A stretch of DNA of 64,000 bases from Oerskovia jenensis. GTDB lineage: Bacteria > Actinomycetota > Actinomycetes > Actinomycetales > Cellulomonadaceae. Shown piece after piece: positions 8,631 to 28,427 of this stretch. A program made the position numbers and the translations under genes. Location of the stretch: assembly GCF_016907235.1 (NCBI RefSeq), contig NZ_JAFBBO010000001.1:2604001-2668000 (forward strand), read 5' to 3'. Position 1 is the first letter of the stretch. Every line of letters begins with the position of its first letter. Under the pieces are notes generated by a model. It saw nothing but the letters and a program-made list of their open reading frames with translations. It ran no database searches and was not told where the DNA came from.

Positions 8631-8688
8631 CGAGAAGTGAGCAGCTGCCCCTGGATCCGGCGATCCAGGGGCAGCTGCTCACTTCTCG
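8631..8688. repeat. Palindromic repeat, family B, copy 1
   Basis: A perfect 27-bp inverted repeat with a 4-nt loop (CGGC). Arms start CGAGAAGTGAGCAGCTGCCC at 8631 and end at 8688. The arm sequence is shared with copies at 25911-25974 and 28366-28427. It sits between the convergent antiporter (stop 8571) and DUF1801 gene (stop 8725). No T-run follows, but it could serve as a bidirectional terminator. Confidence 0.92.
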
Positions 8689-8724
8689 CGACGTCCGGAC
8701 CGGGGCCCGGACGTGCGGGTCGCG

Positions 8725-9159
8725 CTACGCCGTCTGCTCCCGGGCGATGCGCACCAGGTGCAGCACGGCGTCCAGGTCGATGTCGGCGAGCGACTTGAAG
8801 CTCACGCTCGAGCTGCCGATCTTGGCGCGCCCGAGCGTGTGGGCGTACTTCTGGGCGACGTACTGGTCGTCCTCGACGGCGTTGACGTACACGCTGAGGT
8901 AGTTCTGCTGGACCGCGAGGCCGACGGCGAACCACTCGACGCTCCCGCCGCGGGGGCGAGCCTGGAGCACGTCGCCGTACCCGATGATCCGCTGGTCGGT
9001 GCCGCCCCAGAAGACCCCCTCCCAGAGCACCCGGGAGCGGCCGGCCATCACCTCCGAGATCGCGGCGTCGAGGCGCAGGGCGTCGTCGCGGAATCGTTCG
9101 GGAAGGGTCGTGAGGTACTCGTCGGGATCGGTCCCGGTCTTCTGCACGGAAAGCTCCAT
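8725..9159 (-). CDS. DUF1801 (YdhG-like) protein
   Basis: A 144-residue single-domain protein of the YdhG/YjbR-like fold. It shows the family course DPDEYLTTLPERFRDDALRLDAAI near the N-terminus, a central aromatic strand IIGYGDVLQ, EWFAVGLAVQQNYLSVYV, and a C-terminal ADIDLDAVLHLVR helix. Biochemical function of DUF1801 is unknown; some relatives bind iron or small molecules. It is monocistronic, divergent from the GntR gene and ends facing the palindrome at 8631-8688. Confidence 0.8.
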   Translation of the reverse strand: MELSVQKTGTDPDEYLTTLPERFRDDALRLDAAISEVMAGRSRVLWEGVFWGGTDQRIIGYGDVLQARPRGGSVEWFAVGLAVQQNYLSVYVNAVEDDQYVAQKYAHTLGRAKIGSSSVSFKSLADIDLDAVLHLVRIAREQTA

Positions 9160-9263
9160 CCGGTCGGGTCGGCTGGTCGAACGAGGCTATGCGGGGTCCT
9201 GGGGTCCGGCGACCGGGCGGGCCGATCGTGACCGGACCGTAGCCGTCACGACCCGGATGCTCC

Positions 9264-9291
9264 CTTGCATCTAAGGTGCTAGGGTCGCAAG
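9264..9291 (+). promoter_or_regulatory. Leaderless promoter and candidate operator of the GntR gene
   Basis: A -10-like TAGGGT (9280-9285) ends 6 nt before ATG 9292, which would start the mRNA at or next to the initiation codon. The same stretch is bounded by CTTGC and GCAAG and contains TTGCATCTAAG, a weak dyad that could be an autoregulatory site. Confidence 0.4.
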
Positions 9292-9942
9292 ATGTCGCCT
9301 CGCAAGAAGTCCGACGACCAGGCCCCCAGCGCCGTCGAGCGCGCCTTCGCCGCGGTGTCCGCCTCGATCATCACGGGCGAGACCGCCCCGGGCTCGCTCG
9401 TCACGGAGGGCGAGGTCGCCGACGAGCTCGGCATCAGCCGCACCCCCGTCCGCGAGGCGTTCCTCCAGCTCCAGACGTGCCGCCTGCTCACGCTGTTCCC
9501 CAAGCGAGGAGCGATCGTCGCCACGGTCACGGACAAGGAGGTCACGGACCTCCTCGCCGTGCGGATCATGCTCGAGTCGTCCGCGATCCGCGCCCTGGAC
9601 GGTCATTCCCTGCCCGACGGCGTCGCGCGCGACCTCGACGACCTCGTCGCCCGCCAGGTGGTCGCCGAACAGGAAGGCGACCTGCTCGCCTTCTCGCAGG
9701 CGGACTTCGCGTTCCACTCGCGGGTCATCCGCGCGGGGGACAACGACGTGATCGAAGACCTCTTCGCGCAGCTCGGACCACGCCTCGAGCTCCTGACCCA
9801 CCGCGCCGTCCGACGCGACGCGACCTCGCCCACGCGACTCCTCGCCGACCACCGTGTGCTCGCCACGCTGGCGCGCGCAGGCGATGCCGCGGCGTACGAG
9901 GCCGCGCTGCGCGCGCACGTCCAGCGAGGCAACTACGGCTGA
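9292..9942 (+). CDS. GntR-family (FadR/FCD subgroup) transcriptional regulator
   Basis: A 216-residue regulator. The winged HTH (about 15-80) has GSLVTEGEVADELGISRTPV followed by REAF and the wing LFPKRGAIV. The FCD ligand domain (about 90-210) has VRIMLESSAIRAL, FHSRVI and a late DHRVLATLARAGD with HVQRG, where FCD proteins place metal-binding His/Asp residues. It lies directly upstream of an MFS transporter on the same strand (118-nt gap) and probably responds to that transporter's substrate, presumably a carboxylate or sugar acid by family habit. The final residues contain no palindrome. Confidence 0.87.
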   Translation: MSPRKKSDDQAPSAVERAFAAVSASIITGETAPGSLVTEGEVADELGISRTPVREAFLQLQTCRLLTLFPKRGAIVATVTDKEVTDLLAVRIMLESSAIRALDGHSLPDGVARDLDDLVARQVVAEQEGDLLAFSQADFAFHSRVIRAGDNDVIEDLFAQLGPRLELLTHRAVRRDATSPTRLLADHRVLATLARAGDAAAYEAALRAHVQRGNYG

Positions 9943-10060
9943 CGGGCGCCGCGCCCTCCCGGCCGCCATCACCCCGCCCTCCCGCTCGGCCTCCCGTCGT
10001 GGCCGTGCCCTGCCCGCCGACGGGCCACCGTCCCACCGTCCTCGTCACCGAGAAATGATC

Positions 10061-11257
10061 ATGAACCGCCAACGCCCCTTCCCCGGCTGGCTGCGCGTCG
10101 CCCCCGCCCTCGTCGTCATGGCCTGGGGCGGGAACCACTTCACGCCGCTCCTGCACATGTACCAGGACCTCGGGGACTACTCCGTCGTCATGGTCGACCT
10201 GTTCCTCGGCATGTACGTCCTGGGTCTCGTGCCCGGGCTGCTCGTCGCGGGCCCGCTGTCCGACCGGTACGGCCGCAAGCCGCTCGCCGTCGTCGGCGTC
10301 CTGGGTGGGATCGGAGCCAGCGTCCTGCTGGCCCTGGGGTTCGGCAGCGAGGTCGTCATCTGCCTGGGGCGCCTGCTCGCCGGGCTGAGCGTGGGCGTCG
10401 CGATGTCGGTCGGCACGAGCTGGGTCAAGGAGCTGTCGAGCGCACCGTTCGACCTGGGGACCGACCCGACCGCGGGTGCGCGCCGCCCGTCGTTGTCCCT
10501 GACCCTCGGGTTCGGGATCGGAGCCGGGGTCTCGGGCGTGCTCGCCCAGTGGGGTCCGTGGCCGACGGTCACGCCCTACGTGGTCCACGTCGTGCTCAGC
10601 GTGGTCGCGCTCGTCCTGCTCGCGACCGCGACCGAGACCATCGGGGGCCACCGGTCGACGACCTCGCTCCTCGCCGACCTGCGGGTCCCCGCCGCCTCTC
10701 ACCGCCGGTTCGTGCGCGTCGTGGTGCCCGCCGCCCCCTGGATCTTCGGGGCCGCCGGGATCGCCTACGCCGTCATGCCACAGCTCGTGGTCGAGCAGAC
10801 CGGCGACCTGTCGTTGGCCTACGCGACCCTGCTCACGGTCCTCACGCTCGGCACGGGCGCGGTGGTCCAGCCGTTCGTCAAGGCGATCGACCGGGTCACG
10901 GGCGGACGGTCGCTCGTCGTCGGGATGTGCCTGATGCTGCTCGGCATGGCGCTGGCCGCGGCCAACGGGACCGTCGTCTCCCCGGTCCTCGGCGCAGTCG
11001 CAGCGGTCACGCTCGGCGCCGCGTACGGGATCTGCGTGGTCGCAGGACTGATCGAGGTGCAGGCCATCGCGACACCCACCGACCTCGCGGGACTCACGGG
11101 CGTCTACTACAGCCTGTCCTACGTGGGCTTCCTGCTCCCCGTGGTCCTGGCCGGGGCGACGGCGCTCGCCGGGTACACCGTGCTGCTCGCCGTGGTCGCG
11201 GTGGCCTGCGCGGGCTGCCTGGTGACGGTCGTCCGGGGGGTGCGCCGTACGGCGTGA
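10061..11257 (+). CDS. MFS transporter (DHA1-like)
   Basis: About 398 residues with twelve membrane helices. The MFS signature between helices 2 and 3 is GPLSDRYGRKPLAV, and WGGNHFTPLLHMY lies in helix 1. The repeated motif in the second half is weak. Two starts are possible: ATG 10055 or ATG 10061; the later one has GAGAA at better spacing. The frame stays open far upstream, but that part overlaps the GntR gene and does not look like protein. Together with the GntR gene it is likely a regulated uptake or efflux unit; the substrate cannot be told from sequence. Confidence 0.82.
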   Translation: MNRQRPFPGWLRVAPALVVMAWGGNHFTPLLHMYQDLGDYSVVMVDLFLGMYVLGLVPGLLVAGPLSDRYGRKPLAVVGVLGGIGASVLLALGFGSEVVICLGRLLAGLSVGVAMSVGTSWVKELSSAPFDLGTDPTAGARRPSLSLTLGFGIGAGVSGVLAQWGPWPTVTPYVVHVVLSVVALVLLATATETIGGHRSTTSLLADLRVPAASHRRFVRVVVPAAPWIFGAAGIAYAVMPQLVVEQTGDLSLAYATLLTVLTLGTGAVVQPFVKAIDRVTGGRSLVVGMCLMLLGMALAAANGTVVSPVLGAVAAVTLGAAYGICVVAGLIEVQAIATPTDLAGLTGVYYSLSYVGFLLPVVLAGATALAGYTVLLAVVAVACAGCLVTVVRGVRRTA

Positions 11258-11461
11258 GCCGCACCGCGTGAAGCGTCGTGCGCGCACCGTCCGGGCCCGC
11301 CCCTCCGAGGGCACCGTGGACGATGCCCGACGGCGCGGGGTCGAGACGTTCGGATGAGGGGGGTCGGTCCGAACGGGTGAGTCGGGGACCCCCTGGTGGG
11401 CGGGAACGTAGAGGGATCAGGGCGCGACCGGTGCCCACCTCACCTCAGGAGCTCGACGATC

Positions 11462-13492
11462 ATGAAGGTTCTTCGTACCGTCACCACCACCGCAGTCTCC
11501 GCGGCGCTCGTGCTGGGCGGTGGAGCAGCGGCCTTCGCGGCCGAGGGAACGGACGCCCCCGAGGCGGGCGCGCCCGCGGCTCCCGACGCCGGTACGTCCG
11601 GGGCTGGTGCCGAGCAGGCGGTCCCCGCCGCCCCGGCCGACGCTGCCGTACCTGCCGCCGAGGCGCCCGTTGCGCCCCCGGCGCCGGTGGACCCGGTCGT
11701 GGCGCCCGCCCCCGAGGCGAGCGCTCCCGAGGCGCCCGCCGAGGAGGCGGCGCCAGCCGATCCTGCCCCCGCCCCTGCCGGCGAGCAGGAGGATCTCCCC
11801 GTCGCCGACCCCGCAGCCGACCCCGCGGCCGAGGCCGCTCCGGTGGACGAGGCCACGGCCACCGAGCAGGCCGACGACGCCGTGATCCCCGAGGCCGCGA
11901 CCGTCGCCCCCCTGGGCGCGCCCTCCGTGGTCGGTGCGCTGCAGTCGGTGCCCGTCTACCCCGACGCCGACTACCACCCGCACTGGGAGGACAGCTACAA
12001 CAACGGCTTCTCGTGCGACTACTGGTACTTCCTGGAGGACGACGACGCCACGTCGGGCCGCGACTGGACGGGGTGGAGCGGCCAGCCGCAGCTGCACATC
12101 CTGCACCACTCGCTCACGGACGACGACGGCACGATCCACATGGTCTACGACCGCGACATCGCGAGCTACTGGTACCACGTGTGGTCGGGCGACGAGACGG
12201 TGTCCCCGGACGCCGAGGGCATCCACTGGGAGAACACCTCCGCCCAGCAGACCGTGCTCGTCAACGGCTACAAGGGCGGCGCCGACCTGGCCGCTCGCGG
12301 TGCCGACGCCCGGGTGCTGTTCGACCGGGCCGGGGTGAGCGTGCCCGACACCGCCACGATCGCCGACTACCAGTACAGCATCGACAACGGGTGGATCACC
12401 CTGGCCGACGCCGAGCAGGCCGTCGCGGAGCAGAACCTCCGCCGCGCCGACTACACCGCGTACGAGGCCACCCAGTTCGCTGTGTGGTACTTCTCGACCG
12501 GCCACGACGTCATGGGGCTGTTCTTCGACGTCGACGACGCCGGGCACGTGACCCTGAGCCAGAAGGCGCTCGACCAGTTCGCCGGCCAGCAGGCGGAGGA
12601 CTGGACCCGCACCTGGGACCAGGGCTACCTGAGCGACCGCATGGCGACGATGCAGACCGCGGCCTGGCTCATCGAGAACGCGCTGACCACCAACGTGGTC
12701 ATGCCTCAGCCCGGCTTCGTCTCGCACGGCTACGTCAGGAACACCGACGGCTCGACCGACTACGGCTTCACGGCCTCGCTCGTCGGTGGGACCGGTGACA
12801 TCCACGTCGAGCTGCGCACCGCCGACGGCCAGGCCGTGCCGGCCGGAGTGACGCTGGTCGACGCGAACGGCGCCACGGTCACGTCCGTGACGCCGGGGCA
12901 GCGCGTGTTCGTCCGCGTCCCCGCGGGTCTGGACGTCGCGTCGCTGCCGCAGTTCCAGCTCTGGGGCTCGGCGCAGGGCACCGAGCAGGGCAGCCCGCAC
13001 TTCTACACGGGCAGCGACCACAACAACCACGGGACGACCGACGAGAACGGTCAGTGGACGGCCGCGACCTTCCCGCACTGGTTGATCGGCCTGGGCGAGC
13101 TCGACCAGCCCTCGACCGCGTGGGACTGGGTCGGCATCAGCCTGGCCGACGAGCCCGAGGCGCCCGTGGTCCCCGAGGACCCCACGGGTCCCGAGAACCC
13201 GGCCGTCCCCGAGGACCCCACGACGACCGTCGTCGAGACCGCCGACGCCGTGGACCCGGTCTTCGTCGGAACGGACGGGACCGTCCGGACCGTCGCCTCG
13301 ACCGACCCGACGAACCTCGGCCTGACGGACACCGTCCCGGTGGCCGCAGCGGTCCAGCGGACCGACGCCGGGAACCTCGCCTCGACCGGCGTGAACGCGG
13401 GCATGCTCGCCGTCGCAGGAGCCTTCATCGTCCTGACCGGCACGGGCCTCGTCCTCGCCGGGCGTCGCAAGACCAGCTCGACCGAGAGCTGA
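11462..13492 (+). CDS. Cell-wall-anchored thioester-domain (TQXA) surface protein
   Basis: A 676-residue secreted protein. A signal peptide (about 1-27, ending AAAFAAEG) is followed by about 130 residues almost wholly of Ala, Pro and Glu that should form a wall-spanning stalk. The folded region (about 160-470) fits a thioester domain: a single cysteine in GFSCDYW (about 185), VLVNGYKGG, and YEATQFAVWYFSTG (TQ at about 337-338). In characterised family members Cys and Gln form an internal thioester that reacts covalently with surface targets. A second beta domain (about 430-550) and a Pro-rich spacer precede the sorting signal LASTG (about 639), a membrane helix and RRK. Class E sortase anchoring is likely. 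AGGAG precedes the ATG; TCS genes follow. Confidence 0.8.
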   Translation: MKVLRTVTTTAVSAALVLGGGAAAFAAEGTDAPEAGAPAAPDAGTSGAGAEQAVPAAPADAAVPAAEAPVAPPAPVDPVVAPAPEASAPEAPAEEAAPADPAPAPAGEQEDLPVADPAADPAAEAAPVDEATATEQADDAVIPEAATVAPLGAPSVVGALQSVPVYPDADYHPHWEDSYNNGFSCDYWYFLEDDDATSGRDWTGWSGQPQLHILHHSLTDDDGTIHMVYDRDIASYWYHVWSGDETVSPDAEGIHWENTSAQQTVLVNGYKGGADLAARGADARVLFDRAGVSVPDTATIADYQYSIDNGWITLADAEQAVAEQNLRRADYTAYEATQFAVWYFSTGHDVMGLFFDVDDAGHVTLSQKALDQFAGQQAEDWTRTWDQGYLSDRMATMQTAAWLIENALTTNVVMPQPGFVSHGYVRNTDGSTDYGFTASLVGGTGDIHVELRTADGQAVPAGVTLVDANGATVTSVTPGQRVFVRVPAGLDVASLPQFQLWGSAQGTEQGSPHFYTGSDHNNHGTTDENGQWTAATFPHWLIGLGELDQPSTAWDWVGISLADEPEAPVVPEDPTGPENPAVPEDPTTTVVETADAVDPVFVGTDGTVRTVASTDPTNLGLTDTVPVAAAVQRTDAGNLASTGVNAGMLAVAGAFIVLTGTGLVLAGRRKTSSTES

Positions 13493-13500
13493 CCGTCCCC

Positions 13501-13548
13501 CCGAAGCAGGCCGCCCCCTTCCGTCACGGAGGGGGCGGCCTGCTTCGG
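13501..13548 (+). terminator. Strong hairpin terminator after the surface protein
   Basis: A perfect 19-bp stem (13501-13519 with 13530-13548, arm start CCGAAGCAGGCCGCCCCC) and 10-nt loop, 6 nt after the stop codon. No U-tract follows, as is common in GC-rich actinobacteria. Confidence 0.8.
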
Positions 13549-13598
13549 TGCGTGCGCTTCGACCGCCGTATCCCGGCGTTCCTGGCTAGCCTGGCAGC

Positions 13599-14705
13599 AT
13601 GCGGATGCCCGCCCTGGGGTCGATCTCGCGGCGCGACGTCGCGATCGCCTCGTTCGCCGCGCTCGCCGGTGTCGGTCTGGCGGTGTCACGCGTGGCGGTG
13701 GGGCTGTGGGGGACTCCGCTCTGGGCCGAGGTCACGGCGCAGGTCGTCGGGGCCTCGCTGCTCCTGTGGCCGCGACTGACCGGCCCGGCGGTCCTGGGAT
13801 GCGCGCTGCTCTCGTGGGTCTCACCCGTCCCGGCCACGCTGCTCGCCGCGTTCGACGCGGGGGAGCGCCTCGCGCCCCGACGTAGTGCGGCCTGGGCGGT
13901 CACCGGCGCCGTGGTGATCCTCCCGGCTGCTTCTCTGGCGATGGGACGGTCGGACATCGCGATGTCCCTGACCCTGGTCCTGCTCGTCCTGGGCCCCTGG
14001 TTGGCCGGCCGCAGCAGGCGTGCCGAGCGGGTCGCGAACGCAGCCATCCGGGACCGGAGCATCGAGGCGGCCGAGCACGTGGCGGCGCAGGTGCGCACGA
14101 CCGAGCGCGAGCGGCTCGCCCGTGAGATGCACGACGTCGTCGCCCACCGGATCAGCTACGTCGTGCTGCAGACCAATCTCCTGGAGACCAAGGTCGAGGA
14201 CCCGCAGGTCCGCGTCGACGTGGACCGGATCCGGGACACCGCGCGCGAGGCGCTCGAGGAGATGCGGGGCGTGCTGCACCTGCTCAGCCGGGACGGGAGC
14301 CCGGCGGGGCTCGAGCAGCCGTCGTTCCGGGACGTCGCCGTGCTGGTGGCGGAGGCGCGAGCCGTGGGTCAACCGGTCGAGGTGGACGCCGACGTCGACC
14401 CGGGGGAGCCGCCGGGCGTCACCGAGCGCACCGCGGTGCGCATCGTGCGCGAGGCGCTGACGAACGCGGTGCGGCACGCGCCCGGAGCCGAGACCTCCGT
14501 GCAGGTCCACGAAGGGGCGGACTCGTTGCGGGTCGAGGTCGTCAACGGGCCGACGGCGATCCCCGAGGTCGAGCTGCCCACCGGCGGGCACGGGCTCCAG
14601 GGCATCCGCGAGAGGGTCGAGCTCGTCGGCGGGCGCTCCACGATCGGACCGACGCCCGACGGCGGCTTCCGGGTCGAGGCCGTGCTGCCGTGGGGGACCG
14701 CATGA
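13599..14705 (+). CDS. DesK/NarX-type sensor histidine kinase
   Basis: A 368-residue kinase with four or five N-terminal hydrophobic segments (about 15-135). The HisKA_3 box has LAREMHDVVAHRISYVVLQT with the phospho-histidine near residue 178. The HATPase N-box is EALTNAVRHAPG, and GGHGLQGIRERVELVGG is the glycine box. The ATG context has no obvious Shine-Dalgarno; GTTCCTGGCTAGCCTGGCAGC precedes it and the gene may be leaderless from TAGCCT. The stop overlaps the start of the downstream regulator by 4 nt (ATGA). The pair follows the thioester-domain adhesin and its terminator, suggesting but not proving a link with surface physiology. Confidence 0.88.
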   Translation: MRMPALGSISRRDVAIASFAALAGVGLAVSRVAVGLWGTPLWAEVTAQVVGASLLLWPRLTGPAVLGCALLSWVSPVPATLLAAFDAGERLAPRRSAAWAVTGAVVILPAASLAMGRSDIAMSLTLVLLVLGPWLAGRSRRAERVANAAIRDRSIEAAEHVAAQVRTTERERLAREMHDVVAHRISYVVLQTNLLETKVEDPQVRVDVDRIRDTAREALEEMRGVLHLLSRDGSPAGLEQPSFRDVAVLVAEARAVGQPVEVDADVDPGEPPGVTERTAVRIVREALTNAVRHAPGAETSVQVHEGADSLRVEVVNGPTAIPEVELPTGGHGLQGIRERVELVGGRSTIGPTPDGGFRVEAVLPWGTA

Positions 14706-15367
14706 TCCGGGTCGTGGTCGTCGACGACGAGAGCCTCTTCCGCGAGGGGATGGCCGCCCTCGTCGACGCGGCCGACGACCTCGACGTCGTCGGGACGGCC
14801 GAGAACGGCCGCCTGGGGGTCGAGGCAGTGATCGCACGCCGCCCCGACGTCGTCCTCATGGACATGCAGATGCCCGTCATGAACGGCATCGAGGCCACGC
14901 AGGAGATCCGTCGGGTGGCGCCCGAGGTCGCGGTCGTCATCCTCACGAACTTCCAGTACGACGAGTACGTCGTGCCCGCGCTGCGGGCCGGTGCCGCGGG
15001 CTATCTCCTCAAGGACAGCACGGTGAGCGAGGTCCAGCGGGGGATCCGGGCCGCGGCGGAGGGGGACGCGATGCTGTCGCCGGCCGTGACCCGTCGGTTG
15101 CTGGACTCCCTCGGCCCGGCCATGACCACGCGGCAGGCGGAGGCACGGGCCAGGGTGGGGGAGCTGAGCGAGCGGGAGCGGGCCGTCGTCGGGCTCCTCG
15201 CCACGGGTCTGTCGAACGCGGAGATCGCGCGAGCGCTCTACATGGCCGAGCCGACGGTCAAGACCCACCTGACCCACGCCATGGTCAAGCTCGGGGTCAC
15301 GAACCGCACGCAGGCCGCGATCCTCGGCCACGACGCGGGCCTGCCCGACGACGCGGCCACGACCTGA
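14702..15367 (+). CDS. NarL/FixJ-family response regulator
   Basis: A 221-residue partner of the kinase at 13599-14705. The receiver has D9-D10, phospho-acceptor D54 in VLMDMQMPV, LTNF in place of the usual LTTF, and K in YLLKD. The LuxR HTH (about 150-215) has LSERERAVVGLLATGLSNAEI and AEPTVKTHLTHAMVKLG. The start ATG 14702 is chosen over an in-frame ATG 12 nt upstream, because the downstream one gives the canonical MIRVVVVDDE opening and the ATGA overlap. Confidence 0.9.
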   Translation: MIRVVVVDDESLFREGMAALVDAADDLDVVGTAENGRLGVEAVIARRPDVVLMDMQMPVMNGIEATQEIRRVAPEVAVVILTNFQYDEYVVPALRAGAAGYLLKDSTVSEVQRGIRAAAEGDAMLSPAVTRRLLDSLGPAMTTRQAEARARVGELSERERAVVGLLATGLSNAEIARALYMAEPTVKTHLTHAMVKLGVTNRTQAAILGHDAGLPDDAATT

Positions 15368-15442
15368 GGGACGCCGCGGTGGGGCCCGTGCGCCCGGCCG
15401 CCACAGACCGGTCGGGGGAACTCGCGTCATGGATCCGTTTCC

Positions 15443-15479: not shown

Positions 15480-15521
15480 CACAACGTGGGCGACGTGCGG
15501 CGACCACGGACGGAGGAACCC

Positions 15522-20657: not shown

Positions 20658-21629
20658 TCAGGCAGGGGCGCGCGGACGCGACGTGAGCACCCGGTGGCCC
20701 ACCGCGAGGACCGCGACCGCCACGGCCGCGGCGGCGACCGTGAACAGGGCACGTTCGAGGTCGGCCGCGAGCAGGACGTCCTCACCACCCGACGTCTGCA
20801 GGATCACCGCCGGGGTCAGGAAGAGCGTGAAGACCCAGTACGGCTGCTTCAGGTAGGCCCACCCCGCGGCCCCCGTCAGGACGAGCGCCACGGCCGACAG
20901 CACGGTCGGTGAACCGCTCAGGAAGTGCGCCACGACCCCCGCGAGCACGGCGCCCGCGAGCGTGCCGCCGACCCGGGCCAGGGTCCGCGAGAGCGTCGCC
21001 GCGAAGTACGGCTGGACGACCACGAACAGCGTGAGCAGCAGCCACCAGGCGTTGGGGGAGTCGACCCAGCCCATCGCGACGTAGGTCGCGACGCCCGCGA
21101 GGACCGCGAGCGCCAGGCCGAAGTAGGTCGCGACCCGTTCGGGCACGGGCTTGGGCCCGGGCAGACGCATGCCCCTGGTCAGGAGCCCGCCGATCAGAGC
21201 CGTCCACAGACCGCCGAACGCGACCCAGCCGGCCATGGCCGCGAGGGCACCCACGGACGTCGAGGCCGCGACCGTCCCCGAGGGGAGCGCGACGAGCGGC
21301 CCGCCGATGAGCGCGAACGCCGTCTGCGGCCCGACGAACCCGCCGATCCCGTGCCAGCCCCGGACTGCCGAGAAGCCCACGCACGCCCCGAGGACCGTCA
21401 TGAAGACCGCCCCCGCGAGCGGCAGGTCGCTCAGCGAGACACCCACCGCCATGCAGACGGCCGTGAGCGGTCCCGCGACGAGCGCGGCGCCCCGCCCCAC
21501 GAGCAGACCCACGCCCGCAGGGAGCATCCCCAGGTAGACCAGGGTGCCGTCGTGCTTCCACGGCGAGAGCATGAGCGCGACCATGGGCGCGACGAGCAGC
21601 AGGACCAGGCCGATCTTCCGGGGGCTCAT
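20658..21629 (-). CDS. FUSC-family membrane protein
   Basis: A 323-residue membrane protein with about ten helices in two similar halves. The second half has the FUSC signature region NAWWLLLTLFVVVQPYFAATL followed by RVGGTLAGAVLAGVVAHFL, the most conserved patch of the fusaric-acid-resistance/aromatic acid exporter family. Family members export aromatic acids or are of unknown function. It converges on UbiA with only 30 nt between stops. Start ATG 21629 gives MSPRKIGLVLLL; the frame is open further upstream but runs into the RDD gene. A link to the phenolic products next door is speculative. Confidence 0.78.
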   Translation of the reverse strand: MSPRKIGLVLLLVAPMVALMLSPWKHDGTLVYLGMLPAGVGLLVGRGAALVAGPLTAVCMAVGVSLSDLPLAGAVFMTVLGACVGFSAVRGWHGIGGFVGPQTAFALIGGPLVALPSGTVAASTSVGALAAMAGWVAFGGLWTALIGGLLTRGMRLPGPKPVPERVATYFGLALAVLAGVATYVAMGWVDSPNAWWLLLTLFVVVQPYFAATLSRTLARVGGTLAGAVLAGVVAHFLSGSPTVLSAVALVLTGAAGWAYLKQPYWVFTLFLTPAVILQTSGGEDVLLAADLERALFTVAAAAVAVAVLAVGHRVLTSRPRAPA

Positions 21630-21676
21630 GCGTCTCACGCTAGGTCGGGCCGGAAGAATCGGCTCGGCGGGGCGGC

Positions 21677-22870
21677 TCAGGAGGGGAGGTCGGCGCCACA
21701 GCTCGGGGTCGCGACGCCGTCGACGCGCATCTGGGCGGACCAGGTCCACCCGGGTCCGCCGTCTCCGAGAGCGTCCGCGGGCAGGACGATCACGCCGGGG
21801 CTCGTGGGATCGGCGCCGAACCCGGCGTAGCGCGTGTCGAGCGGCGTCGAGTACTCCTGCCGGGTGCCGTCCGGGGCCGTGAGGACGGCCTCGAGCGAGA
21901 CCGTGGAGCCCGCCGGGAGGTCGCCGTCCCAGACGAGCGTGATCTCCGCCGGGACCGCGCCGTCGGGCGGGTAGGGGTGGGTCACTCCCAGGCGGGTGAT
22001 CGTGCCGGACGTCGTGCTGCTGAAGGACGCCTCGCTGAGCCGGGCCGGGTCGGGGCGGTCCTCGTGCTCCCACGTCGTGCAGGCCACCGACGACCCGAAC
22101 CTCCCACCCGTGGTCGTGGTGGGGCCGTAGGCGTACGCCAGCCCGGCCACGCACAGGACGGTCGCCGCCGCGGTGACGACCGTCGACCCGCGTCGTCCCT
22201 GCCGGACGAACGGGGCGAGCACGGCGTGGGGCTCGGGTGCGACGGACCGCACGACGATCGTCGACAGCAGGCTGTCCGCGAACGTGCGGCGCTGCTCGTC
22301 CCACAGCGGGCGCAGGTACCCGATGAAGCACAGTGCATCGAGGAGGTGCGCGAGCCAGCGCAGGACCGTGGCGAGGAACCCGACCGGGCGGCCGGAGTCC
22401 CGCTGGACGACGACGATCCCCGCCGCCCGCTTGCCGGGCGTCGCGCCGGTGTACGCCTGGAGAAGAACCATCGCAAGGACCGCGCCGATCATCCACGCGC
22501 TCTCGGACCAGGTCACGTCCTCGAACGCGGTGCCCGTGCTGCCGGTGTTGTCCAGGCCGGGGAGCGCGCTCGGCGCGACCCCCGGGCCGACGACCACGAA
22601 CATGAGCCCGGCCAGGATCGAGTTGTCGAGCAGGAACGCCCCGACGCGACGCAACCAGCTCGCGTACGGGCCGACGAGCGGGGCGTCGTCGAGGTCGTCG
22701 AGGTCCGGCGGGAAGGAGGTGGCACGGCCCGGGGGGAGGGCGGGCGCTGGGCGCGCGGCGGGCTCGGCGACGCCGTGGGCGGGGGCGGTGGCCGAGGCCC
22801 CCACCGTCGCGCGGGCAGGCTCGTGGTGGTCACCGTCGTGCGGTGCCGGCGTCGTCGCGGGGTCCCCCAT
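21677..22870 (-). CDS. RDD-domain membrane protein with extracytoplasmic tail
   Basis: A 397-residue protein. An Ala/Pro-rich cytoplasmic leader of about 60 residues precedes the RDD domain (about 65-215): SWLRRVGAFLLDNSILAGL, ATPGKRAAGIVVVQRDSGRP, TVLRWLAHLLDALCFIGYL and DEQRRTFADSLLSTIVV. One more helix near residue 235 leads to a C-terminal soluble region of about 150 residues with two cysteines (VACTTWEHED and TPSCGADLPS), probably outside the membrane and disulfide-linked. RDD proteins are often auxiliary transport or sorting proteins; the precise role here is unknown. Confidence 0.78.
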   Translation of the reverse strand: MGDPATTPAPHDGDHHEPARATVGASATAPAHGVAEPAARPAPALPPGRATSFPPDLDDLDDAPLVGPYASWLRRVGAFLLDNSILAGLMFVVVGPGVAPSALPGLDNTGSTGTAFEDVTWSESAWMIGAVLAMVLLQAYTGATPGKRAAGIVVVQRDSGRPVGFLATVLRWLAHLLDALCFIGYLRPLWDEQRRTFADSLLSTIVVRSVAPEPHAVLAPFVRQGRRGSTVVTAAATVLCVAGLAYAYGPTTTTGGRFGSSVACTTWEHEDRPDPARLSEASFSSTTSGTITRLGVTHPYPPDGAVPAEITLVWDGDLPAGSTVSLEAVLTAPDGTRQEYSTPLDTRYAGFGADPTSPGVIVLPADALGDGGPGWTWSAQMRVDGVATPSCGADLPS

Positions 22871-23059
22871 GGGACGAGCGTCCCAGATGTGGGGCGGGTT
22901 GTCAGCCGACCCCCTCGCGGGGTGCTGGACGGACTCCGCAGGCGTGCGGTCCGGTTCGTCCGCGAGCGCTCGGGACGACCCGAGCTGCGCGCTCGGTGAG
23001 CGGTCCGCACTCGGTGACCGAGCCGCGCCCTCCCCCCGAGGGGCGCAGGGCGGTGGCTC

Positions 23060-23542
23060 TCAGGCGGTCGCGCTCACGGGGGCCGCGCTCGCCGACGGTT
23101 CGGCCGGCAGCTCGTGGAGCGCCGCGACGAGAGGCGCGAGCTCCTCGACCTGGCAGGCCTCGGTCAGCGCCCGCTCGAGGGCCGCGTCGTGCGTGGGCCG
23201 GGCCTGGCGCAGGAGCTGCTCGCCCTGCGGGGTGAGCTCGGTGTAGATGCCGCGGCGGTCGTCCTGGCACAGGATGCGCGTGAGCAGGCCGCGGTCCTCG
23301 AGGCGGTTCACGAGCCGGGTCGTGGCGCTGCTGCTCAGGGCTGCGGCGCGCGCGAGCTGCTGCATGCGCATGTGCCAGCCGTCCTGGCGCGAGAGCGCGT
23401 CGAGCACGGTGTACTCGACGACCGAGAGGCCGTGGTCGGCCTGGAGCGCGCGTTCGAGCGCGGTGTCGAGGATGCCGTGCAGCGCGGCGAGCGTGCGCCA
23501 GCCCTGCGAGCGGATCTCGACGGCGTCGTCCCCGATGCCCAT
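23060..23542 (-). CDS. MarR-family transcriptional regulator
   Basis: A 160-residue winged-helix regulator: LSVVEYTVLDALSRQDGWHM opens the DNA-binding domain, then ALSSSATTRLVNRLEDRGLL (recognition helix) and ILCQDDRRGIYTELTPQG (wing, with the conserved DxR). ATG 23542 is preferred because AGGAGG precedes it, though the frame continues 12 codons upstream. It is divergent from an MFS transporter and aldo-keto reductase, which it probably represses. Cys in the wing (ILCQD) might be redox-responsive, but that is only a possibility. Confidence 0.86.
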   Translation of the reverse strand: MGIGDDAVEIRSQGWRTLAALHGILDTALERALQADHGLSVVEYTVLDALSRQDGWHMRMQQLARAAALSSSATTRLVNRLEDRGLLTRILCQDDRRGIYTELTPQGEQLLRQARPTHDAALERALTEACQVEELAPLVAALHELPAEPSASAAPVSATA

Positions 23543-23569
23543 GCGTGCCTCCTGTGCCTGTCGTGACGT

Positions 23570-23660
23570 CGCTCTCAACTATACCGCTTGTGTGAACTAC
23601 CAGCGCGTGCAACTATTTAGGAGGCGCCTGCAACTACTGCACGCGCCGGTTGTTGCACAC
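23570..23660. promoter_or_regulatory. Divergent MarR-controlled promoter region
   Basis: This AT-richer spacer contains four spaced copies of an AACTA core (AACTATACC, AACTACCAG, AACTATTTA, AACTACTGC), two preceded by TGC, and the complementary GGTTGTTGCAC nearby. Such spaced half-sites between divergent MarR and efflux genes suggest several operator copies. Confidence 0.45.
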
Positions 23661-23702
23661 ACGCTGTTGCGCGAGGTGCCAGACACAGACAAGGAGCAGC
23701 GC

Positions 23703-24986
23703 ATGCCGCTGGGTCTTCTCGCCCTCGCCGTCGGGGGCTTCGGGATCGGGCTCACCGAGTTCGTCATCATGGGTCTCCTGCCGGAGATCGCACGAGAGTT
23801 CGGCGTGACCGAGGCCGTCGCCGGCTACCTCATCTCGGGCTACGCGCTCGCGGTCGCGGTCGGAGCGATCGGCCTCACGGCCGCCGTGATCCGCCTCGAC
23901 CGCAAGACGGTCCTCGGCAGCCTCATGATCCTGTTCATCGCCGGGAACCTGCTCTCGGCCCTCGCCCCCACCTATGAGCTGTTGCTCGGCGGGCGCATCC
24001 TCGCGGCCCTGTGCCACGGCGCGTTCTTCGGGATCGGCGCGGTCGTCGCCGCGGACATGGTCGCCCCGGCCAAGCGGGCGGGCGCCATCGCGACGATGTT
24101 CGCGGGCCTCACGACCGCCAACGTCCTGGGCGTGCCGTTCGGCACGTTCCTCGGACAGCAGTACGGCTGGCGCTCGACGTTCTGGGCCATCACGGCCATC
24201 GGCGTCGTCGCGCTCGTCGGGATCCTGCTGCTCGTGCCGTCCACGCGCCGGGCGGCCGGCGCGCACGGCGTCGCGGCGGCCCCCGGCGACGCGGCCCGCT
24301 CGGCCACCGCCCACGGCGACCCCGCGCTCCCGGCCGGGGCTGCGCCGTCGGGCACGCCGTCCCTGCGGACCGAGCTCGCGGCCTTCCGCAACCCGCAGGT
24401 CTGGTGGTCGATCCTCGTCACCGTGCTCGGGTTCGGTGGCATGTTCGGCGCGTTCACCTACATCGCGTTCACGGTCACCGAGGTCGGCGGGTTCGCGACC
24501 ACGAGCGTGCCGTGGCTGCTCGTGCTGTTCGGCGTCGGGCTGTTCGTGGGCAACTACCTGGGCGGCAAGGCCGCGGACCGGTACCTGACCACGAGCCTGC
24601 TCGTGCTCCTCGGCGCGCTGACCGTGGTCCTCGCGGTCTTCGCGCTCACCGCGACGAGCCAGGTCATGACCCTGGTCTCGCTGTTCCTCATGGGGGCCTT
24701 CGGGTTCGCGACCGTGCCCGGCCTCCAGATGCGCATCATGGGCCACGCGCAGGCCGCCCCGACCATGGCGTCGGGCGCCAACATCGCGGCGTTCAACGTG
24801 GGCAACGCGCTCGGCGCGTGGATCGGCGGCCTGGCCGTCGCGGCCGGGCTCGGCTTCACCTCGCCCCTGTGGGCGGGCGCGGCGCTGACGCTGCTCGCGG
24901 TCGTGGCCCTGGGAGTCGCGACGCTCCAGGAGCGTCGGACCCCCGTGGCGCCGGCTGCGGCGCCCGTGCCCGTCGCGGCCCACTGA
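23703..24986 (+). CDS. MFS transporter (AraJ/DHA1-type efflux)
   Basis: A 427-residue twelve-helix transporter. GFGIGLTEFVIMGLLPEIA in helix 1 and ISGYALAVAVGA are characteristic of the AraJ/chloramphenicol-efflux branch; a family motif LGGRILAALCHGAFFGIG marks helix 4. The central cytoplasmic loop (about 180-225) is expanded with Ala/Gly/Pro and His (GVAAAPGDAARSATAHGDPA), and its DNA includes the GCGCCGTCGGGC motif at 24342. AAGGAG precedes ATG 23703. It forms an apparent operon with the aldo-keto reductase 27 nt downstream and is divergent from MarR, fitting export and detoxification of a toxic compound. Confidence 0.85.
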   Translation: MPLGLLALAVGGFGIGLTEFVIMGLLPEIAREFGVTEAVAGYLISGYALAVAVGAIGLTAAVIRLDRKTVLGSLMILFIAGNLLSALAPTYELLLGGRILAALCHGAFFGIGAVVAADMVAPAKRAGAIATMFAGLTTANVLGVPFGTFLGQQYGWRSTFWAITAIGVVALVGILLLVPSTRRAAGAHGVAAAPGDAARSATAHGDPALPAGAAPSGTPSLRTELAAFRNPQVWWSILVTVLGFGGMFGAFTYIAFTVTEVGGFATTSVPWLLVLFGVGLFVGNYLGGKAADRYLTTSLLVLLGALTVVLAVFALTATSQVMTLVSLFLMGAFGFATVPGLQMRIMGHAQAAPTMASGANIAAFNVGNALGAWIGGLAVAAGLGFTSPLWAGAALTLLAVVALGVATLQERRTPVAPAAAPVPVAAH

Positions 24987-25012
24987 CCCACCCACCACCC
25001 GAAGGAGAAATC

Positions 25013-25852
25013 ATGACCAGCACCACCACCGTCCCTGCGGTCGCTCTGCGCGGCGGGACGAGCATCCCGCAGCTCGGCTTCGGCGTCTTCAAGGTGCCCG
25101 ACGGCGAGGCCGCCCAGGTCGTCTCGCTCGCCCTGGACGCGGGGTACCGAAGCATCGACACCGCCGCGGTCTACGGCAACGAGGCGGGGGTCGGCGCGGG
25201 CATCGCCGCGTCGGGCCTGCCCCGGGACGAGGTCTTCGTGACGAGCAAGCTGTGGATCGACGCGATGGCGCGCGAGGCCGTGCGACCCGCGTTCGAGCAG
25301 AGCCTCGAGCGGCTCGGGCTCGATCACCTCGACCTGTACCTGATCCACTGGCCCGTGCCCGGGGCGGGCCGGTTCGTCGAGGCGTGGGAGGAGCTCGTGG
25401 CGCTGCGCGAGGCGGGGCTCGTCCGAGAGGTCGGCGTCTCGAACTTCACGGCCGAGCACCTCGACGCGCTCGTCGCGGCCACGGACGTGACGCCCGCCGT
25501 GAACCAGGTCGAGCTGCACCCGGCGTTCTCGCAGCGGGCGCTGCGGGCGCACCACCGCGAGCTCGGGATCGTGACCGAGGCGTGGAGCCCGCTGGGCCAG
25601 GGGACCGTGCTGGGCGACCCGGTCCTGGGTGAGATCGCCGACGCGCACGGCGTGACGCCCGCGCAGGTCGTGCTCCGCTGGCACCTGCAGGCCGGGACCG
25701 TCGCGATCCCCAAGTCGGTCACGCCCGAGCGCATCGCGTCGAACCTCGACGTGCTGGGCTTCGAGCTCTCGGCCGAGCAGGTCGAGGCGATCGACGGGCT
25801 CGACCGCGCTGACGGGCGCATCGGGCCGGACCCGGACGCGTTCAACGGCTGA
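25013..25852 (+). CDS. Aldo-keto reductase (2,5-diketo-gluconate reductase-like)
   Basis: A 279-residue TIM-barrel reductase. The AKR catalytic tetrad is visible: D in SIDTAAVYGNEAGVG, Y in the same block, K in VFVTSKLW and H in LYLIHWPVP. The NADPH site follows in VAIPKSVTPERIASNLDV. It matches the DkgA/B-like group that reduces aldehydes, methylglyoxal and keto sugars. GAAGGAGAAATC gives a strong ribosome site. It follows the MFS gene by 27 nt, so both are probably co-transcribed under MarR. Just after the stop come a hexanucleotide repeat and a long palindrome. Confidence 0.9.
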   Translation: MTSTTTVPAVALRGGTSIPQLGFGVFKVPDGEAAQVVSLALDAGYRSIDTAAVYGNEAGVGAGIAASGLPRDEVFVTSKLWIDAMAREAVRPAFEQSLERLGLDHLDLYLIHWPVPGAGRFVEAWEELVALREAGLVREVGVSNFTAEHLDALVAATDVTPAVNQVELHPAFSQRALRAHHRELGIVTEAWSPLGQGTVLGDPVLGEIADAHGVTPAQVVLRWHLQAGTVAIPKSVTPERIASNLDVLGFELSAEQVEAIDGLDRADGRIGPDPDAFNG

Positions 25853-25873
25853 GCTGCAGCTCCTGCGCTGCGG

Positions 25874-25910
25874 CACCTGCACCTGCACCTGCACCTGCAC
25901 CTGCACCTGC
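25874..25910. repeat. Hexanucleotide tandem repeat (CACCTG)6
   Basis: Six uninterrupted copies of CACCTG plus one base, 21 nt downstream of the aldo-keto reductase stop and touching the palindrome at 25911. Such repeats can change copy number by slippage; here it lies in a 3' untranslated region. Confidence 0.9.
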
Positions 25911-25974
25911 CGCCGAGAAGTGAGTAGATGCCCCTGATCCGTGGGGATCAGGGGCATCTACTCACTTCTCGGCG
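25911..25974. repeat. Palindromic repeat, family B, copy 2
   Basis: A perfect 30-bp inverted repeat with a 4-nt loop (GTGG). Arms start CGCCGAGAAGTGAGTAGATG. It shares most of its arm with copies at 8631 and 28366 and again lies between convergent genes (reductase stop 25852, lipoprotein stop 26034). It is the longest perfect hairpin in the window. Confidence 0.93.
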
Positions 25975-26033
25975 GGTCGGGCTGGCCAGGCTGGGCTCGG
26001 CGGGCCGGGCTCGGCGGGCCCGGGCTCGGCGGG

Positions 26034-26408
26034 TCAGGCGCAGAGGTCGATCGCTGCGGTCGCGCCCTCGCGCACCTCGAAGACCTCCTCGTGCCCCTGG
26101 TCGTCCGTGAAGGTCGCGCGGTCACCCTCGACGAGCAGCCACCCCGCCTGGGAGGGGTTGTCCCAGCCGCGTGGGGGATTGCCGCCGCCGATGTCGAGCG
26201 GACCGTCGACCCGCTGGTACCAGAGGCCCTCGTGCACGAGCTCGTCGATGCCGCAGTGGGTCGTGAGCTCGAAGGGGACAGCCCCCGGGTCGGGCTCGTA
26301 CGCCGCTCCGGCGCAACCGCCGACGAGCAGCAGCCCGGCGAGCAGCGGCCCGGCGAGGGCGAGCGGCGAGCCTGTGCGGAGCGGACGTGCTGGTCGGCGG
26401 TGCGGCAT
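26034..26408 (-). CDS. Small putative lipoprotein
   Basis: A 124-residue protein with a basic N-region (RRPARPLR), a hydrophobic core and a lipobox LLVGGC (Cys about 32), so it should be a lipid-anchored exported protein. The mature part of about 92 residues has THCGIDEL and a terminal DLCA, which could form a disulfide, and strands such as AGWLLVEGDRATFTDDQG. I do not recognise a family with a known function; small actinobacterial lipoproteins of this kind are usually hypothetical. It is monocistronic and convergent with the reductase across palindrome copy 2. Confidence 0.75.
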   Translation of the reverse strand: MPHRRPARPLRTGSPLALAGPLLAGLLLVGGCAGAAYEPDPGAVPFELTTHCGIDELVHEGLWYQRVDGPLDIGGGNPPRGWDNPSQAGWLLVEGDRATFTDDQGHEEVFEVREGATAAIDLCA

Positions 26409-26475
26409 GGGTCCCCCTGGGTGTCTCCGACGGCGTCACCCTGTCTGTGTCCCGACGCCCCTGGTGCTTGCACCG

Positions 26476-26533
26476 CGAGATCGGGGTCGTTGTCGCCCGA
26501 CGAGGCGATCCAGCGACAACGAGCCCGATCTCG
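26476..26533. repeat. Long inverted repeat (single copy)
   Basis: 21-bp arms, CGAGATCGGGGTCGTTGTCG starting at 26476 and the complement ending at 26533, with one mismatch and a 16-nt loop. It lies between the MFS stop (26563) and the lipoprotein start (26408), both on the minus strand, so it is positioned to terminate the MFS transcript. Confidence 0.85.
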
Positions 26534-26562
26534 ACGTTCGACGGCCAGGGCCGGGCGCGCCC

Positions 26563-27921
26563 CTACGTCCCATCGGGCCGCGCGTCACCCCGCGTCGCCG
26601 GGAACGCGTGCCGCCGCGCCCCCAGCACGATCCCCACGACCGGCACCGCGAGCGCGAGCGTCGCCCACGGCAGCGCGCCGGACCCGCCCGCACCCAGCAC
26701 GACGCCGCCCACGATCCCGCCGAGCGCGAGCGCCCCGTTCCACGAGGTGACGAACGCGGACTGCGCGACGTCGGCCGCAGGACCCGCTGCTCGCGCGAGC
26801 GCCGTCTGGAACAGGGTCCCGCTGCCGCCGAACGCGAAGCCCAGCGCGGCGACCGCGGCGTAGACCGCGACGGGGGAGCCCGCCGCGACCGCGAGCGTCA
26901 GGCCCGCGAGCCCCAGGAGCGAGGCGGCGAGGACCGTCATGACGCGCAGGTGCGTGTCGATCAGCGCCCCGATCACGACGAGGCTCGCGAACGACGTCGC
27001 GCCGAGCACCGCGAGCAGCACCCCGGTCTGCGCGCCGAGCCCGACGTCGTCGAGGAACACCGCGACGTACGTCGAGAACACGTTGTAGGCGAGGACGGTC
27101 AGACCCGTCACGAGCACGACCGGCGCGACGCCGGGCAGCCGCAGCGCCCGCCCGATCGGCACCTGGGTCCCGCGCGGCTCGCCCGGGAAGTCCCGCACGC
27201 CCCAGCGCACCCATGCCGCCAGCCCGAGGCTGAGGATCGTCATGGCGCCGAACGCCCAGCGCCACCCGACGGTCGCGCCCAGCGCGGTCCCGGCCGGGAC
27301 GCCGAGCGCCAGCGCGAGCGGCGCTCCGCCCATCGCGATCGCGAGCGCTCGCCCGGCCTGCTCCGGCGCGGCGAGGCGCCGTGCGTACCCGGCGAGGAGC
27401 GCCCAGGTCAGCCCGGCGACGAGCCCCGCCGCGAAGCGCGCGCCGAGCGTGAGGGCGTAGCTCGACGACACGGCCGTCACGGTGTTCGCGACCGCGAACC
27501 CGGCGATCGTCGTGAGCAGCAGGCGGCGCCGGGGCCAGCGTGCCGTCGCGCGGCTGAGGGGGATCGCGGCGACGATCGCCCCGATCGCGAAGACCGTGAC
27601 GGTCTGCCCGGCGGCGCTCGCGGAGACCCCGAGGTCGGCGCTGAGCGCGGGCAGCACGCCCGCGGGCAGCACCTCGGTGAGGAGCGTGACGAACCCGGTC
27701 GCGGCCAGGGCGAGCAGGGGCAGGAGGGGAAAGCGCGGGCCCGACGGCGCAGCGTCCGCGGGTGCGCCGGTCCGGTGCGGGCGCGTGGTCGTCGGGGGCG
27801 CAGGTGGCGCTGTGGCCGTCGGGGGGCCCGCCGGCGCGGCGAACGCGGCGGGCGAGACGGGCGCTGTGGCCGTCGGGGGAGCGTCGGTCGACGGCTCGGT
27901 CGGAGCGGTGCAGGTGGTCAT
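26563..27921 (-). CDS. MFS transporter (Cmx/AraJ-type)
   Basis: About 452 residues from ATG 27921. The first 60 residues are a Thr/Ala/Pro-rich cytoplasmic leader far longer than usual for this family; its last part is encoded over a copy of GCCCGACGGCGC (27739). Twelve helices follow with the branch landmarks GFVTLLTEVLPAGVLPALS, GQTVTVFAIGAIVAAIPLS and MGGAPLALALGVPAGTALG. It resembles chloramphenicol/arabinose-efflux permeases. An alternative in-frame ATG lies at 27945. It is divergent from a MerR gene (66 nt), its probable activator or repressor; the substrate is unknown. Confidence 0.84.
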   Translation of the reverse strand: MTTCTAPTEPSTDAPPTATAPVSPAAFAAPAGPPTATAPPAPPTTTRPHRTGAPADAAPSGPRFPLLPLLALAATGFVTLLTEVLPAGVLPALSADLGVSASAAGQTVTVFAIGAIVAAIPLSRATARWPRRRLLLTTIAGFAVANTVTAVSSSYALTLGARFAAGLVAGLTWALLAGYARRLAAPEQAGRALAIAMGGAPLALALGVPAGTALGATVGWRWAFGAMTILSLGLAAWVRWGVRDFPGEPRGTQVPIGRALRLPGVAPVVLVTGLTVLAYNVFSTYVAVFLDDVGLGAQTGVLLAVLGATSFASLVVIGALIDTHLRVMTVLAASLLGLAGLTLAVAAGSPVAVYAAVAALGFAFGGSGTLFQTALARAAGPAADVAQSAFVTSWNGALALGGIVGGVVLGAGGSGALPWATLALAVPVVGIVLGARRHAFPATRGDARPDGT

Positions 27922-27929
27922 AGGGTTAG

Positions 27930-27950
27930 CATGAATGTCTGACATGGATG
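27930..27950. promoter_or_regulatory. Candidate MerR operator
   Basis: The dyad CAT-GA-ATGTC-T-GACAT-GG-ATG is centred at 27940 between the divergent MFS and MerR starts. A TTGACC on the minus strand precedes it, so the dyad would sit in the -35/-10 spacer of the MFS promoter, the usual place for MerR-type control. Confidence 0.55.
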
Positions 27951-27987
27951 TGAAGGTCAAGCTCGACCCGTGAGAGAGGCGTAGCGC

Positions 27988-28377
27988 ATGCGCATCGGCG
28001 AGCTGTCCCGCCGCACCGGCACGGCCACCCGGCTGCTCCGGTACTACGAGGAGCAGGGCCTCCTGACCCCGCAGCGCGAGGAGAACGGTTACCGCGAGTA
28101 CGGCGAGCACCTCGTCGACCGCGTCCTCCAGATCCGGGGCCTGCTCGAGGTCGGTTTCCCGACGCGGATCATCGCCGAGCTCCTGCCGTGCCTCAACCAG
28201 CCCCGCGAGATCCACCTGCACAACGCCTACCCGGACAAGATCGCACTGCTCGAGACCGAGCTGGGACGGATGACCGAGCGCATCGACACCCTCACCAGGA
28301 ACCGCGATGCGATCGCGAACTACCTCGAGGCCATCCGGGTCGACGCCGCGCCGGCAGACGTTCTCGCCGAGAAGTGA
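27988..28377 (+). CDS. MerR-family transcriptional regulator
   Basis: A 129-residue regulator. The N-terminal HTH is textbook MerR: MRIGELSRRTGTATRLLRYY, then EEQGLLTPQREENGYREYGE. An antiparallel coiled-coil helix (about 85-120) follows. There is one cysteine (LLPCLNQ, about 69) but no CxxC or metal-binding C-terminal set, so a metal ligand is unlikely and an organic effector is more probable. The last residues (LAEK) and the stop codon are encoded by palindrome copy 3 (28366-28427), which suggests that the repeat entered the gene end or was co-opted. Confidence 0.86.
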   Translation: MRIGELSRRTGTATRLLRYYEEQGLLTPQREENGYREYGEHLVDRVLQIRGLLEVGFPTRIIAELLPCLNQPREIHLHNAYPDKIALLETELGRMTERIDTLTRNRDAIANYLEAIRVDAAPADVLAEK

Positions 28378-28427
28378 GCAGATGCCCCTGATCCGAGCGA
28401 TTCAGGGGCATCTACTCACTTCTCGGC
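28366..28427. repeat. Palindromic repeat, family B, copy 3
   Basis: A 62-nt inverted repeat with outer arms GCCGAGAAGTGAG and a few internal mismatches. It matches copies 1 and 2 through GAGAAGTGAG and CAGGGGCAT. It spans the MerR stop codon and ends 6 nt from the stop of the convergent dehydrogenase (28433). Confidence 0.92.

Follow-up and report, generated by a model that had tools for sequence, protein, structure and literature searches.

Three hairpins in a 64-kb window of Oerskovia jenensis belong to a dispersed palindrome family that borders a Vsr-like nuclease gene

A 64-kb stretch of the Oerskovia jenensis genome, referred to below as the window, carries three similar, strong hairpins in the gaps between convergent genes. 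This raises the question of whether these hairpins are terminators or copies of a dispersed element and, in the latter case, which gene could be their partner. We estimate a probability of roughly 0.55 that they are a palindrome of the repetitive extragenic palindromic (REP) kind with a dedicated partner nuclease gene elsewhere in the genome, a system resembling REPs and REPtrons. The family is dispersed, lies preferentially at gene 3' ends and follows a distinct pattern of constraint, and lineage-specific palindromes are recurrently associated with genes for Vsr-like nucleases.

The three hairpins that an earlier note had described from the letters of the window were all found in place, and the family is real (Table 1). 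Genes in the window were called with our own codon-usage script rather than a published gene finder, and these independent calls again placed every copy between convergent genes. Perfect stems of 27 and 31 bp, each closed by a loop of 4 nt as previously given, were measured for copies 1 and 2; copy 2 is slightly longer than the 25911-25974 and 30 bp first proposed. Copy 3 had also been called perfect, but its 27-nt arms are 96% complementary and are separated by 10 nt. Likewise, the compensatory change in the arms applies to copies 1 and 2 (CAGCT versus TAGAT, each with a matching arm), whereas copy 3 has one C.A mismatch in the same stretch. The sequence GAGAAGTGAGYAGNTGCCCCTG had 6 matches in the window compared with 0 in 100 dinucleotide shuffles, and RNA folding gave z-scores against shuffled sequence of -12.0, -12.8 and -10.3 for copies 1, 2 and 3. 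The U run that follows the hairpin of an intrinsic terminator was absent from the flanks of the copies, and a simple scan requiring a T run found 0 terminator-like sites in positions 24001-30000, which hold copies 2 and 3. Directly before copy 2 stands a perfect repeat of the hexamer GCACCT (6.3 copies, 25873-25910); a similar CACCTGC stretch precedes a palindrome copy in another Oerskovia genome, G002.

Table 1. Positions of the hairpin copies, the overlapping regulator gene and the partner nuclease gene (window positions unless a contig is named)
Feature	Position	Core	Strand	Context
Copy 1	8631-8688	8632-8687	none	between convergent genes 6649-8571 (+) and 8725-9147 (-)
Copy 2	25910-25975	25915-25970	none	between convergent genes 25013-25852 (+) and 26034-26408 (-)
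Copy 3, imperfect stem	28365-28428	28369-28424	none	between convergent genes 27988-28377 (+) and 28433-29758 (-)
MerR-type regulator gene (named by eye)	27988-28377		+	last codons and stop (GAG AAG TGA) inside the arm of copy 3
Partner nuclease gene, G000	C1:3552357-3553259		-	outside the window

Copy numbers were determined in seven Oerskovia genomes (G000 to G006, G000 being the genome of the window with 4,453,691 bases in one contig) with the pattern GAGAAGTGAG-N5-GCCCC-N16-GGGGC-N5-CTCACTTCTC, allowing up to 3 mismatches. The search returned 17 copies in G000, 20 in G001, 4 in G002, 10 in G003, 19 in G004, 20 in G005 and 0 in G006; the backward control pattern gave 0 in each genome. The proposal of a dispersed REP-like element is borne out by these counts, with 17 copies in the window's own genome rather than only three, and 4-20 in the other Oerskovia that bear copies. 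All exact copies in G000 are 56 nt long, and a search with variable spacing yielded only 56-nt hits among the matches listed. The sequence GAGAAGTGAGYAG was found in 6 of 59 relatives' genomes (the window's own counted), all of them Oerskovia. DNA uptake sequences also form terminators, and there the motif is abundant singly in the genome as well. This reading was rejected, since 34 of the 37 exact GAGAAGTGAG sites in G000 are paired inside the 17 hairpins and the motif is not abundant singly.

Palindromes of the form GAGAAGTGAG...CTCACTTCTC also occur in many unrelated phyla, in Rhodanobacter, Dyella, Hymenobacter, Desulfatirhabdium and others (L092-L171). The search gave at least 117 stretches, with 80 loci among the matches listed and one match of each read. 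Outside Oerskovia their spacing is variable, they consist mostly of repeated GAGAAGT-like units and they are devoid of the GCCCC layout, which was present in the four entries of this search that came from Oerskovia. Judged solely by spacing and layout, the palindromes of other phyla were treated as unrelated to the family.

Placement was analyzed for 86 copies, comprising all copies of G000, G001, G002, G004 and G005 and 6 of the 10 of G003. Convergent genes surround 49 of these, co-directional genes 26 and divergent genes 11, and none lies inside a predicted gene. In the same loci, convergent pairs make up only 79 of the 386 gene pairs and take up 6757 of the 44969 intergenic bases, which agrees with the expectation that copies lie mainly between convergent genes. 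The bias is one toward gene 3' ends more generally, with 23 of the 26 co-directional copies closer to the 3' end of the upstream gene. In 22 of the 86 copies, the stop codon of a gene lies within the arm (GAG AAG TGA). The copies largely occupy common sites, about 24 site groups, of which 15 are convergent by majority; the grouping merges some neighbouring sites. Because many copies are thus orthologous, they are mostly old and vertically inherited.

When 79 distinct copies were compared, hardly any change was seen in the outer 10 bp or in the GCCCC core. Positions 11-15 and 23-25 do differ in sequence, yet 61-76 of the 79 copies keep Watson-Crick pairs there. Shuffling gave mean pairing of 38-46 at seven of these eight positions; at position 13 the shuffled mean was 67.7 with a maximum of 73, compared with 75 observed. 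These shuffles do not keep the relatedness of the copies. What is maintained is a palindrome, part of which also has a fixed sequence. Co-variation of the arms, expected from the comparison of the first copies, was therefore recovered in the larger set, but the conclusion that it implies maintenance of the fold was too strong: correction of the palindrome at the DNA level, gene conversion among copies or recognition by a protein would also yield such co-variation. Given the near symmetry of the copies, constraints on RNA and on DNA cannot be told apart with these data. The consensus GAGAAGTGAG...CTCACTTCTC of the 79 copies contains no GTAG or GTGG tag.

A RAYT, that is, a REP-associated tyrosine transposase, had been suggested as the gene to look for. 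The Y1/RAYT transposase profile PF01797 matched 0 of the 7 Oerskovia genomes at an E value of 0.001, compared with 5 of 14 control genomes, and a RAYT was accordingly rejected as the partner. Instead, one gene of about 300 aa, with ppx-like and padR-like neighbours (assigned by eye), is bordered by two palindrome copies in 6 of the 6 species with copies, at the same site in all six. The gene's stop codon falls within the downstream (3') copy, and the 5' copy precedes the predicted start by about 100 nt in five species and by 351 nt in G002, where the gene caller chose a later start.

The protein from G000 matched the Pfam family MTES_1575 REase (PF18741) with an E value of 7.5e-9 and 36.0 bits, just under the cut-off of 38.2; scored on the genome, PF18741 gave 38.2. 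DUF559 matched at 0.0011. In an alignment of six of the nuclease proteins (A1), 6 of 6 members matched both PF18741 and DUF559 (PF04480). The N-terminal half of the Oerskovia protein matched the AbiEi models of PADLOC (2.7e-6). Beyond AbiEi, searches of PADLOC, NCBIfam and PDB with the nuclease gave weak matches only, and the single PDB profile match was to 3r3p, a "mobile intron protein" (E 0.23). The residues E192, D225, E236, D238, H242 and D252 are invariant in the six sequences of A1 and form the putative nuclease active site. By its domain matches, the partner is a predicted Vsr-like nuclease with an AbiEi-like N-terminal half and an MTES_1575/DUF559 C-terminal half.

The nuclease gene is vertically inherited, with one per genome of the copy-bearing lineage. 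In G006, which has no copies, the PF18741 search detected no ortholog of it; of its three matches there, two fall in long open reading frames, of 873 and 1370 aa, and the third is the ortholog of another, GAGTGC-flanked nuclease described below. Presence of the partner gene and presence of copies thus agree in 7 of 7 Oerskovia genomes. The variable 5 bp of the two copies flanking the nuclease gene are alike within 4 of 6 species and unlike between species. Since the flanking copies match within and differ between species, homogenisation is suggested.

The association was then followed across the order, where, at 1e-30, profile A1 had matches in 113 of the 198 genomes searched and in 42 of 73 genera. 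The 69 best-scoring nuclease loci outside Oerskovia were examined, one of them (L417) cut by a contig end. Hairpins scoring at least 15 and lying within 400 nt were present on the left at 31 loci, on the right at 33 and on both sides at 23; in 21 of these 23, spanning 12 genera and 7 families, 12 nt or more were exactly the same in the left and right hairpins. Only 5 of 1000 mismatched pairings of left and right hairpins from different loci shared as much. At Ppx control loci, hairpins stood on both sides in 3 of 26 cases and matched in 0 of 26. Among genes of at least 600 nt, hairpins on both sides were found for 0 of 212 in a sample of the genome G041 and for 0 of 42 in the window.

In G070, which belongs to another genus of the same family, GCCGAGAAGTCGAATTCGGCCCCT palindromes stand on both sides of a nuclease gene next to ppx; in these palindromes, the outer GCCGAGAAGT and the GCCCCT are the same as in the Oerskovia element. 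Similarity of palindromes and similarity of nucleases were correlated over 34 loci (Mantel r 0.62). This correlation was not used as proof of coevolution, since close relatives account for it and common descent predicts it; at nuclease identities of 0.45-0.60, the palindromes were no more alike than at lower identity.

Dispersal of the cognate palindromes was observed in 4 of the 5 families tried, in three non-Oerskovia genomes. In G133, the cognate arm had 32 matches with up to 3 mismatches, compared with 0 in 17 congeners and 0 for the control. The 20 listed loci of G133 contained 13 distinct palindromes, 7 of them between convergent genes. Two of the 13 flank the nuclease gene, and again an arm contains its stop codon. 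A 400-kb sample of G041, taken away from the nuclease loci, held three hairpins of the L435 family, picked by eye from five motif matches, and three of the L405 family. In 400 kb of G023, a looser filter gave seven hairpins with the L381 core and the strict filter gave 1.

Further nucleases, flanked by other palindromes, occur within Oerskovia. A second one (G000 C1:4255306; also in G004, G005 and G006) is flanked by GAGTGCGTGATTCGGCTGCGAC palindromes, one of the two being imperfect in G005. This GAGTGC family is dispersed in all seven Oerskovia genomes. The genes between pairs of GAGTGC palindromes are mostly ordinary, with the palindromes in neighbouring gaps, and the reading that any gene might lie between two palindromes in this way was set aside. 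Because ordinary genes are often found between GAGTGC palindromes, the claim for the nucleases rests on close flanking with controls. A third type of nuclease, in G001, is flanked by CGAGATGCGGC palindromes, and for its relative in G000 the stretch read shows a CGAGATGCGGC palindrome on one side. In G003, a fourth nuclease stands between CTGAGTGCGGAGTAGTTGTCGTCG palindromes.

Several other hairpins were recorded alongside these families. Positions 41926-41982 of the window hold a CGAGATGCGGC palindrome (RNA fold z -9.6) over the end of the gene 41946-42848 (-), facing 41411-41917 (+); it is similar to the palindromes beside the third nuclease type of G001 and G000. A 25-bp palindrome, GGTGTCGTTTCTGCGTAGCCACCAC (L284 2266-2319, L285 887-940), stands beside a long gene containing MTES_1575, a frame of about 1380 aa, in G004 and G001. 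The palindrome CCGAGAACGGGGTTGGGGCC... at window 36975-37031 is like the CGAGAACG hairpins of G000 and G001. The long inverted repeat CGAGATCGGG(G/C)TCGTTGTCGC at 26456-26553, with one copy among the clustered loci, is probably another palindrome family. The hairpin GGCCCGACGGCGGAGCGC... at 38981-39033 is one of 6 distinct hairpins that cluster together in the Oerskovia loci retrieved and that may represent a common type of terminator. Elsewhere, the window contains a complete 16S-23S-5S rRNA operon (58066-63294), and ARAGORN found no tRNA genes in its 64 kb.

Comparison of individual sites showed turnover. One intergenic site carries a GAGAAGTGAG hairpin in G005 and hairpins of another family (CGAGAACG...) in G000 and G001, and at the site of copy 3 a decayed copy is present in G002. 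The swap between families and the decay fit interchangeable 3'-end hairpins. At the copy 3 site, G001 and G004 (L251, L263) have an extra gene of 644-666 aa between two copies, and G000 and G005 (L215, L226) have a single copy and no extra gene; the extra gene was either gained with a palindrome or lost by recombination between copies.

For a REP-like palindrome with a dedicated nuclease, we propose the following course. The nuclease would recognize its cognate palindrome by the invariant parts, namely the outer 10 bp and GCCCC core, with the palindrome in the form of a duplex, a cruciform or a hairpin. A cut at or beside the palindrome, followed by repair, could then copy the palindrome into intergenic DNA or homogenise existing copies. 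Copies at 3' ends would persist as U-less bidirectional hairpin terminators or as 3'-end protectors and may supply a stop codon. In this proposal, recognition and mobilisation would be the work of the nuclease and termination that of the palindrome. On a broader level, the data may point to a way in which REP-like elements arise without a RAYT in Actinomycetales: each Vsr-like nuclease would recognize a palindrome of its own, border its gene with two copies, one of which often provides the stop codon, and disperse more copies, to be kept by the host as 3'-end hairpins, with different palindromes evolved in sister nuclease lineages. We hold the chances for and against this generalization to be even.

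A number of observations weigh against a partnership of nuclease and palindrome. At the threshold used, 46 of the 69 nuclease loci lack a hairpin pair, and one of the five families tried (L407) had no extra copy in the 400-kb sample of G041. The GAGTGC family is dispersed in G001, G002 and G003, in which no ortholog of its nuclease was detected, and this case counts against strict dependence on the nuclease. The agreement of gene and copies comes from seven related, non-independent genomes with a single negative. Most Oerskovia copies are at the common sites, so that no recent movement is seen, and neither a clean empty site nor a target duplication came to light in the site comparisons in Oerskovia. 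Finally, nuclease binding, cutting and palindrome movement are inferred from sequence.

The main rival gives the palindromes a separate origin, as 3'-end hairpins or terminators, and makes the nuclease gene a selfish, homing-like passenger that, by targeting one of them, duplicates the palindrome at its borders without spreading the dispersed copies. The weak match to the "mobile intron protein", the position of the nuclease gene at the 3' end of a neighbour gene, like that of the ordinary copies, and the GAGTGC palindromes in genomes without a detected cognate nuclease are in line with such a passenger. However, the nuclease occupies one site in six Oerskovia species rather than varied palindromes, and the palindromes are specific to the nuclease lineage, with dispersal in most of the families tried. 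Furthermore, the palindrome of G133 is present in 1 of 18 genomes of its genus, namely the one whose nuclease it flanks. We consider a passenger rather unlikely.

Improbable, to a greater degree, is that a regulatory, toxin-antitoxin-like or defence protein uses the palindromes as binding or operator sites, and that they were dispersed through use of this protein by the host as a regulator or marker, not through mobility. The AbiEi match of the N-terminal half speaks for it, as AbiEi is reported to autoregulate through binding of inverted repeats (PMC7319586). Most copies, however, are at 3' ends rather than promoters, and 11 of 86 are divergent; in these searches the AbiEi match covers no recognisable DNA-binding helix-turn-helix, and a gene for a partner toxin was not recognized next to that of the nuclease. 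That gene conversion between the ends of convergent genes gave ordinary strong hairpins their likeness, with an incidental link to the nuclease, agrees with the convergent bias and with the species-wise likeness of the flanking copies, but it is very improbable given matched pairs at 21 of 69 nuclease loci in 12 genera versus none at the 26 Ppx loci and none around 254 other genes, and given a palindrome that varies by lineage, and was already disfavoured by these controls.

If a dedicated nuclease partner is correct, dispersed palindromes have arisen with an enzyme class unrelated to the HUH tyrosine transposases, to which those with a known partner gene are tied in PMC2817692 and PMC3733652. 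It would also suggest what a group of proteins encoded in 113 of the 198 searched genomes of the order may do, and it could explain the origin of shared-sequence 3'-end hairpins in some high-GC genomes. Because each nuclease gene predicts its own substrate, the system is directly testable. In the open-access literature (preprints and subscription papers were outside the search), no description of the association between nuclease and palindrome was found.

The closest known systems are the REPs with their RAYTs (REPtrons). Dispersed palindromes, a gene flanked by two of them, lineage specificity, complementary changes and agreement between gene and copies are described for these (PMC2817692, PMC3733652), and the Oerskovia family shares every one of these features. 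Unlike in REPtrons, however, the partner is a predicted Vsr-like nuclease and not a Y1/HUH transposase, and the element is a nearly symmetric 56-mer with no GTAG tag in its consensus. Its approximately 4-20 copies per genome are low for a REP, for which the same sources state more than 100 as usual. CGTC-tagged REPs are likewise dispersed palindromes without a flanked RAYT (PMC3733652), but the Oerskovia consensus lacks the CGTC tag and the family has a flanked partner gene. The nuclease domain belongs to the same family as the Vsr-like MTES_1575 REase and DUF559 proteins; here, it is found in a standalone protein of about 300 aa with an AbiEi-like half and not in the HEPN/helicase fusions of the naming paper (PMC3710099), in the main text of which neither "palindrom" nor "DUF559" occurs. 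With intrinsic terminators the hairpins share their GC-rich strength, their location at gene 3' ends and their usability from both strands, but they differ in a sequence common to dozens of copies, a fixed length of 56 nt and the lack of a T run. Taken alone, the palindromes would be merely a new REP-like family. Together with the nuclease they would be a new kind of system, like REP/RAYT in anatomy, different from it in enzyme and tag, and presumed to act in the manner proposed above.

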